DNA of 64,000 nucleotides from Salinilacihabitans rarus (lineage in GTDB: Archaea > Halobacteriota > Halobacteria > Halobacteriales > Natrialbaceae). Below the pieces are notes generated by a model that was given only the letters and a program-made list of their open reading frames with translations, made no database searches and was not told the origin of the DNA. The DNA lies in NCBI RefSeq assembly GCF_024296665.1, contig NZ_CP100762.1, positions 3,534,001-3,598,000 of the forward strand. The letters run 5' to 3'. The position numbers and the translations under genes were made by a program. This document shows, piece by piece, positions 43,706 through 45,145 of this stretch (the stretch's first letter is position 1; each line of letters opens with the position of its first letter).

Positions 43706-45145
43706 GTGGATACCGAGGCCTTCCCCCGACCGATCGGGACGCGACCCCGTTTCTCGGCGCTGCTCGCAGCCACTGCGCTCGGCGTCTACCTCCTGCTGGT
43801 CGTCGGCGCGACGACGTCGCTCACCGACGCCGCCGCGGCGTGTACGACGTGGCCGACCTGCCACGCGCCGACCGACCCGCTGAGCCAGACCGAACTCGCG
43901 ATCGCGTGGGGCCACCGCCTCGCCGCCGCCGTCGTCGGCCTGCTCGTCGTCGCCTCGACGGCGGTCGGCGTCCTCGGCGACGCCCCGCGGCGCGTCCGTG
44001 CCGCGCTGGTCGCCGCGTTCGTCCTCTACGTCGTTCAGGTGGGCGTCGGCGCGCTGACGGCTGTCGACGGCCCCGGCGCGATCGCTCCCGGCCTGCACCT
44101 CGCGCTCGGCGTCGTCATCCTCTCGGCGGTCGTCGTCGCGCTCGCGTGGGACCTCGAAGCCGCCACCGGGACCGACGACGAGGCGACCGACCCCGCACCC
44201 GAGCCGGCCCCGGACCCCCTCGCGGACGAGGAGGCGACCCCGCGGCGACTCCCCGAGGGCGGCCTCGCCCGCGCCCGACTGACCGCGGTCGCCTACGTCA
44301 GGATGATGAAACCGCGGCTGATGTGGCTGCTCTGTCTCGTCGCCGCGGCCGGGATGGCGCTGGCGGCCGGCCCCGACCTCGACGCCCACACCATCGTCGC
44401 GACCCTCGGCGGCGGCGTCCTCGCGATCGGCGCGAGCGGCACTTTCAACCACGTCCTCGAACGCGACGTCGACCGCCGGATGTCGCGGACCGCCGACCGG
44501 CCGCTCGCGACCGACCTGATCCCCGCGCGGAACGCGGTGCTGTTCGGGCTGTTCCTCGCGGCCGCGTCGACGACCGTCTTCCTCTCGATCAACGCGCTGG
44601 CCGCGGGGCTTGGCCTCGCCGCGATCCTCTTTTACAGCGTCGTCTACACGCTGGTTCTCAAGCCCAACACCGTCCAGAATACCGTCATCGGCGGCGTCGC
44701 GGGGGCGTTGCCCGCGCTGATCGGCTGGGCGGCGGTCACGAACGAGATCGGCGTCCCCGCGCTCGCGCTCGCCGGCGTCATCTTCCTCTGGACGCCCGCG
44801 CACTTCTACAACCTCGCGCTCGCCTACCGCGACGACTACGCCCGCGGTGGCTTCCCGATGATGCCGGTCGTCCGCGGCGAGACCGAGACCCGAAAGCACA
44901 TCCTCTACTACATCGCAGCGACGTTCGTCGCCACGGTCGCGCTCGCCTGGCTTACCGACCTCGGGGCCGTCTACGCCGTCACGGTCGTCGTCTTCGGCGG
45001 GGTCTTCCTCCGGTACGCCGTCTCGCTGCACTTCGAGCAGACCGACTCGGCGGCGTTCCGCGCGTTCCACGCCTCGAACGCCTTCCTCGGCGCCGTGCTG
45101 GTGGCGATCCTCGTCGACGCACTCGTCGCGCTGCCGGCGTTCTGA
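43706..45145 (+). CDS. ctaB: Fused heme A synthase-like/heme O synthase (CtaA-like + CtaB)
   Basis: A 479-residue membrane protein. Residues 1-155 form four helices like half a heme A synthase, with His70 (AWGHRLAA), His131 (GLHLALG) and a Cys46-Cys52 pair (CTTWPTC) as in CtaA. Residues about 195-479 are a complete UbiA-type heme O synthase, with KPRLMWLL, the Asp-rich NHVLERDVDRRM...RTADRPL and a KPNTVQNTVIGG loop. Heme O synthase farnesylates heme B, and heme A synthase then oxidises a methyl. Both would serve a heme-copper terminal oxidase in the cytoplasmic membrane. A glycine replaces the residue just before His70, and the Glu expected three residues before it is Ala. Confidence 0.85.
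   Translation: MDTEAFPRPIGTRPRFSALLAATALGVYLLLVVGATTSLTDAAAACTTWPTCHAPTDPLSQTELAIAWGHRLAAAVVGLLVVASTAVGVLGDAPRRVRAALVAAFVLYVVQVGVGALTAVDGPGAIAPGLHLALGVVILSAVVVALAWDLEAATGTDDEATDPAPEPAPDPLADEEATPRRLPEGGLARARLTAVAYVRMMKPRLMWLLCLVAAAGMALAAGPDLDAHTIVATLGGGVLAIGASGTFNHVLERDVDRRMSRTADRPLATDLIPARNAVLFGLFLAAASTTVFLSINALAAGLGLAAILFYSVVYTLVLKPNTVQNTVIGGVAGALPALIGWAAVTNEIGVPALALAGVIFLWTPAHFYNLALAYRDDYARGGFPMMPVVRGETETRKHILYYIAATFVATVALAWLTDLGAVYAVTVVVFGGVFLRYAVSLHFEQTDSAAFRAFHASNAFLGAVLVAILVDALVALPAF

Follow-up and report, generated by a model that had tools for sequence, protein, structure and literature searches.

A CtaA-like half without the ExxHR glutamate, fused to heme O synthase in Halobacteria, as a candidate half of a two-part heme A synthase

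The haloarchaeal fusion of a half-size CtaA-like domain with heme O synthase (CtaB) lacks the Glu of the ExxHR motif, and the same genomes nearly always carry a separate CtaA that keeps it. The architecture, this Glu split, the conservation of the other motif residues, the co-occurrence with the separate CtaA and the joint absence with the heme-copper oxidase were all directly observed. We infer from them, with a probability of roughly 0.55, that heme A synthase here consists of two parts, the fused half being the heme-b-type one and the separate CtaA the catalytic one. This two-part reading is more likely than a single-chain CtaA/CtaB enzyme. There is about an even chance that the arrangement is class-wide, that is, a trans-split heme A synthase with a free Glu-bearing half (of four helices, or of eight with a decayed second half) and with the heme-b half placed on heme O synthase.

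The window is a stretch of 64,000 nucleotides from Salinilacihabitans rarus (NZ_CP100762.1, positions 3,534,001 to 3,598,000). The fusion gene lies in it as one open frame with a GTG start, 479 codons plus a stop, and no internal stop. Its features are as follows.

43706..45145, + strand: CtaA-half/CtaB fusion gene, 479 aa (translation, class-wide search, Pfam, NCBIfam)
43742..44167, + strand: CtaA-like four-helix half, residues 13-154 (COX15-CtaA match, model helices, profile against 6A2J)
43841..43861, + strand: Cys46 ... Cys52 (CTTWPTC), the first-loop Cys pair (translation; present in 80/80 primary fused copies)
43904..43906, + strand: Ala67 codon at the expected position of the ExxHR catalytic Glu (translation)
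43913..43915, + strand: His70 (H1), heme-ligand-type, with Arg71 next to it (His in 79/80 primary fused copies)
44096..44098, + strand: His131 (H2), heme-ligand-type (His in 80/80 primary fused copies)
44168..44260, + strand: acidic interdomain linker, about residues 155-185 (no helix; first part of low pLDDT)
44261..45145, + strand: CtaB, heme O synthase of the UbiA fold, with the NHVLERDVDRRMSRT and YRDDYARGGFPMMPVV stretches (TIGR01473, PF01040)

The Pfam search of the fusion gave UbiA (PF01040, residues 211-459, 204 bits) and COX15-CtaA (PF02628, residues 19-154), the latter passing its cut-off of 29.9 with 38.7 bits. Heme o synthase (TIGR01473, residues 196-471) was obtained from NCBIfam with 295.6 bits, above the curated cut-off of 210.3. 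In the predicted structure, helices at residues 13-39, 61-90, 95-121 and 126-154 are followed by a low-confidence linker and the CtaB helices, and the CtaB part adopts the UbiA fold (Z 29.0, rmsd 3.2, 280 residues aligned to 6m31). The first-pass annotation had described a half-size CtaA-like domain with two His and a Cys pair joined in one frame to a full CtaB, with the expected ExxHR Glu missing. The translation, Pfam and NCBIfam bear out this architecture, and Ala67 indeed stands in place of the Glu. When compared with half-size type 1A CtaA, the window fusion has the Cys pair, H1 and H2 and lacks the Glu. Two His ligand positions without a Glu, directly before CtaB, correspond to the pattern of the heme b half of eight-helix CtaA. 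The neighbours of the gene in the window are unrelated (uracil-DNA glycosylase family, DUF7111, DUF7410, SPW repeat and aldo/keto reductase).

The whole fusion protein was used as a query and matched in 387 of the 391 genomes of the class, the weakest best E value being 4e-91. Therefore, the fusion is neither a chance joining nor a sequencing slip, and the survey of haloarchaeal CtaA/CtaB fusions that had been proposed finds them nearly throughout the class. Among the match ranges listed, nearly all cover the whole protein, with that of G150 truncated at residue 397. All 38 genomes of a closer set, drawn from 37 genera, matched the fusion, and 36 did so as one span over both domains; the exceptions are G017, with two pieces in one frame, and G303, where the match is split over two contigs. 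A search of the phylum (196 genomes) gave 31 matched genomes, all of them Halobacteria and each with matches at two places at least.

The alignment was composed of 88 fused copies (84 genomes plus the DL31 plasmid record, 11 families) and 115 separate haloarchaeal CtaA. At the position three residues before H1, Glu was found in none of the 87 readable fused copies (Ala 73, Val 10, Phe 2, Tyr 2) and in all 115 of the separate CtaA. The primary fused copies carry Ala (71/80) or Val (9/80) there and never Glu (0/80), and they keep the Cys pair (80/80), H1 (79/80) and H2 (80/80). Glu is also absent from all seven secondary fused copies. Glu63 of the window fusion, which lies near Ala67, is unconserved among the fused copies. 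The earlier suspicion that the missing Glu may mean no oxidation by the fused domain was judged right. Repeats of one gene (L126, L137, L266, L284-L286 and L289) and loci fetched for other purposes were dropped before counting. The motif is still readable in L330 and L332, both cut by contig ends. L046/L047 and L112/L115 are pairs of separate CtaA with identical cores from different genomes, and each pair was counted as two. L331 (G009 C1:204700-207300) was kept out of both the fused and the separate counts; its fusion frame is broken inside the CtaA half by a sequencing slip or by real decay, and its visible motif is ALGHR.

The genome of the window (one contig, 3.62 Mb, 99% complete) has three CtaA-family genes, namely the window fusion and the following two.

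C1:159142-160575: second Glu-less fusion, motif FWGHR (translation)
C1:361946-362818: separate CtaA of 290 residues with the EWIHR Glu and H2 (translation)

The second fusion belongs to a cluster (C1:159142-167220, the same as L012:7143-15221) with NirK-like oxidase, SCO-like, thioredoxin-like and CcdA-like proteins, a short COX2 and COX1; COX1 was assigned by its PF00115 match and the other names were read by eye from the translations. Comparable secondary fusions with Tyr or Phe at the Glu position were seen in G004, G025 and G028. In the separate CtaA, to which the NCBIfam search gave no name, Gln and Tyr occupy the second-half positions H3 and H4, so that both heme-ligand His are gone. Therefore, the separate CtaA and the fusion look complementary. 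The first-pass annotation had staked its proposal on the genome having no separate complete CtaA. One is largely there, since a Glu-bearing CtaA exists, but its second half is incomplete. Its idea that a lone fusion carries heme from farnesylation on to oxidation found no support.

The proposed mechanism can be outlined as follows. The C-terminal CtaB would farnesylate heme B to heme O, as is established for its family. Both His and the Cys pair are retained in the fused four-helix half, which therefore probably still binds a heme. As it lacks the Glu proposed to be catalytic in B. subtilis CtaA, it would not oxidise heme O by itself. Its role would instead be that of the heme-b-type second half in a two-part enzyme. 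The separate CtaA of the same genome, which has Glu, H1, H2 and the Cys pair, would supply the first half, presumably through physical pairing. The asymmetry of an ordinary eight-helix CtaA would then be recreated in trans by the two proteins, with CtaB kept by the fusion at the site of heme O oxidation.

Judged by frame length, the 111 rows of separate CtaA comprise 83 eight-helix and 28 four-helix proteins. Among 66 distinct eight-helix proteins, H3 is His in only four (Gln 32, Phe 16, Tyr 14), H4 is His in two, and both are kept in one. Most eight-helix separate CtaA are therefore without a two-His heme site in the second half, and the fused half keeps such a site. The same kind of loss appears in the accessible text of a published survey, with Phe at H3 in 55% of its type 1A* sequences (PMC12808453). 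The one protein with both H3 and H4, L120, speaks against the two-part reading. The four-helix separate CtaA have Glu, H1, H2 and the Cys pair; by analogy with Aeropyrum CtaA they could be partner-free homodimers, which also speaks against it. From this side comes a rather unlikely but still sizeable alternative, in which the fused half binds heme and acts as a tether or relay, passing heme O from CtaB to a complete separate CtaA, for example a homodimer, with no shared active site. The full set of residues in the four-helix proteins and the retention of H1, H2 and the Cys pair in the fused half agree with such a relay, as do the bacterial CtaA-CtaB complexes, possibly passing heme O, that are described in the accessible part of PMC9145763. 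However, H3 and H4 are missing from most of the eight-helix separate CtaA, whose heme b site would then have to come from elsewhere. Extra four-helix CtaA are plasmid-borne in some genomes. The one on pNG600 of Haloarcula marismortui (L182:7836-8453) is Glu-bearing, lies beside a thioredoxin-domain protein and DsbB, and has relatives on other haloarchaeal plasmids.

A profile search found a separate CtaA beside the fusion in 39 of 41 fusion-bearing genomes. The exceptions, the drafts G184 and G205 (93 and 94% complete), show the fusion with no separate CtaA and count against the two-part reading. With the separate CtaA as the query, 383 of the 391 genomes were matched at 1e-8, a figure that may include weak cross-hits to the fused half. 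The four genomes without the fusion (G001, G007, G093 and G129) also have no separate CtaA and no COX1, and COX1 was found in all 12 of the fusion-bearing genomes searched for it. G093 has the same genus code as G346, which carries both the fusion and COX1. In seven of 12 genomes a fusion copy and COX1 are no more than about 7 kb apart, and in DL31 the fusion adjoins coxI-II-III. In G021 the separate ctaA is directly upstream of the fusion on the same strand. In G285, also on the same strand, its stop and the start of the fusion overlap as ATGA, and this gene order reads as that of the Thermomicrobium roseum CtaA-CtaB protein split after the first half.

A control was given by fusions outside Halobacteria. 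The locus L234 carries the half-size fusion in a form that has the Glu. Sixty genomes around that of L234, itself included, were searched, and the whole half-size fusion was found in seven of them (G554-G560). The profile search detected no CtaA besides the fusion in any of the seven, and Glu, H1, H2 and the Cys pair are kept in 7/7. The fusion alone therefore does not remove the Glu, and Glu loss as a property of any half-size fusion is ruled out. The Glu is missing in the haloarchaeal fusion clade, where a separate Glu-bearing CtaA exists. The archaeal status of the seven genomes rests on the L234 proteasome and on computed kinship: L234 is a MAG contig titled Proteobacteria with an archaeal proteasome alpha subunit above the curated cut-off, and the label of the record is doubtful.

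The same control bears on the idea that the fusion makes heme A unaided, with the role of the Glu taken by another residue, such as the fused-specific Tyr28 or Tyr108. Tyr28 is Tyr in 80/80 primary fused copies and variable in separate CtaA, Tyr108 is present in 76/80, and the accessible text of the survey places these fusions among the type 1A heme A synthases (PMC12808453). However, the Glu is kept in all seven fusions that are the only CtaA of their genome, and a Glu-bearing CtaA nearly always accompanies the haloarchaeal ones. No conserved acidic replacement was found within the membrane in the fused halves, E151 at the end of helix 4 being the only conserved acidic residue. This idea is improbable. 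Very improbable is a degenerate remnant or a heme-sensing regulator tuning CtaB; the Glu is lost, and in the secondary fusions L326 (G196) and L327 (G017) the Cys pair and parts of the motif are gone too, with H1 and H2 still in place. However, Cys, His, Arg, Gln111, Tyr28 and Trp148 are almost perfectly conserved over 80 primary copies, which is not drift, and a decayed leftover is rejected for these copies.

The descent of the fused half was approached with profiles, trees and a structural model. A profile of the fused halves matched B. subtilis CtaA (6A2J) with an E value of 1.7e-21. The fused profile A2 scored 51.2 and 34.3 bits on the N- and C-terminal halves of 6A2J and 59.7 and 53.9 bits on those of T. 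roseum CtaA; the higher N-half scores would count against reading the fused half as a C-terminal half. The separate-CtaA profile A1 gave 69.4 and 27.3 bits (6A2J) and 65.0 and 61.6 bits (T. roseum). On these values, the profile score was rejected as an indicator of N- or C-half descent. The haloarchaeal fused halves came out as a single clade (SH-aLRT 100) in the trees, which had 98 and 117 rows. Therefore, the Glu loss may have happened just once, and its link to a partner is nearly a sample of one (n = 1). The four-helix separate CtaA are intermingled with the eight-helix ones in the trees, with four changes, at least two of them forced by well-supported branches. After six long or odd rows were dropped, the AU test gave p 0.688 for the fused halves with bacterial C halves and 0.493 for the fused halves with haloarchaeal separate CtaA, without placing the fused half. 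Since a structure search with the whole fusion showed mostly CtaB, the CtaA half was folded alone. Its model, built from an alignment of bacterial N-terminal halves and L234, superposes best on the C-terminal half of 6A2J (residues 157-303; Z 12.9, rmsd 2.8, 145 aligned), tied with unrelated four-helix bundles. A likeness to the C-terminal half may come from descent or from parallel losses that followed a duplication. A partial Mantel test of fused-half against separate-CtaA distances given CtaB (r 0.21, p 0.001, 42 genomes), in which the CtaB part of the fusion represents the species tree only imperfectly, gives weak support to a joint evolution of the two proteins beyond that of CtaB.

If the two-part reading is true, the two halves of an internally duplicated enzyme have become two genes, and the enzyme that makes the first product is tied to the non-catalytic half of the second. 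A trans-split would also account for the ability of type 1A* enzymes to do without heme-b ligands of their own. The residue split thus offers a testable answer on the fusions and on type 1A*, neither of which may be complete alone. Besides, Halobacteria would provide a natural separation-of-function system for the role of the heme b half, in which the catalytic and non-catalytic halves could be mutated or deleted as separate genes. Annotation across an archaeal class would be corrected as well, as NCBIfam names the fusion by its heme o synthase part only.

In the family as presented in the accessible parts of PMC12808453 and PMC9145763, CtaB makes heme O and CtaA oxidises its methyl group. In B. 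subtilis CtaA the Glu lies in the N-terminal half, the presumed holder of heme O, and heme b is held by the C-terminal half. The fusion architecture is ordinary for the class and is already in print: according to the accessible text of the survey (Karavaeva et al. 2026), 154 of 273 type 1A sequences, mostly from Halobacteria, are fused to heme O synthase (PMC12808453). These resemble the fusions here in the four-helix CtaA half, the one Cys pair and the joined CtaB. The survey text calls the Glu strictly conserved, whereas no readable haloarchaeal fused copy has it here; the fusions were omitted from the survey alignments, and therefore the missing Glu went unexamined there. What is new in this work is the Glu split across the class, the set of control fusions with Glu, and the decay in the second half of the separate CtaA; together they favour the two-part reading over a single-chain CtaA/CtaB enzyme. 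In the open-licence PMC literature on half-size or heterodimeric heme A synthase and on CtaA in haloarchaea, no report of a Glu-less fused half or of such a pairing was found. The available text on Natrialba magadii assigns separate ctaA and ctaB and names no fusion (PMC3403918).

The separate CtaA of the window's genome is like the type 1A* eight-helix heme A synthases of Halobacteria in its EWIHR Glu, its H2 and the lack of the second-half H3 His. In the accessible survey text, it is unclear whether type 1A* is a true heme A synthase, and it is mostly the only one of its genome (PMC12808453), whereas the type 1A*-like CtaA here sits beside Glu-less fusions keeping the two His that it has lost. 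The text further gives type 1A* together with type 1A in only 10 assemblies, which is at odds with the co-occurrence found here; a survey filter that misses many Glu-less fusions would explain this figure and is a candidate reason. Aeropyrum CtaA is half-size with four helices and a Cys pair like the fused half. Unlike the haloarchaeal fusion, it is described without a CtaB part and as a homodimer in the accessible passages of papers citing it. A trimeric CtaA is described in the available part of PMC7327177, and that of PMC8239418 covers CtaA-CtaB fusions of bacteria and, for some bacteria, natural substitutions of Glu57. The bacterial eight-helix fusion of T. roseum (WP_143714781) has, as in haloarchaea, a Glu-less half with two His and a Cys pair directly before CtaB. 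In T. roseum the Glu half, the Glu-less half and CtaB form one chain, whereas the Glu half is a separate gene in haloarchaea.
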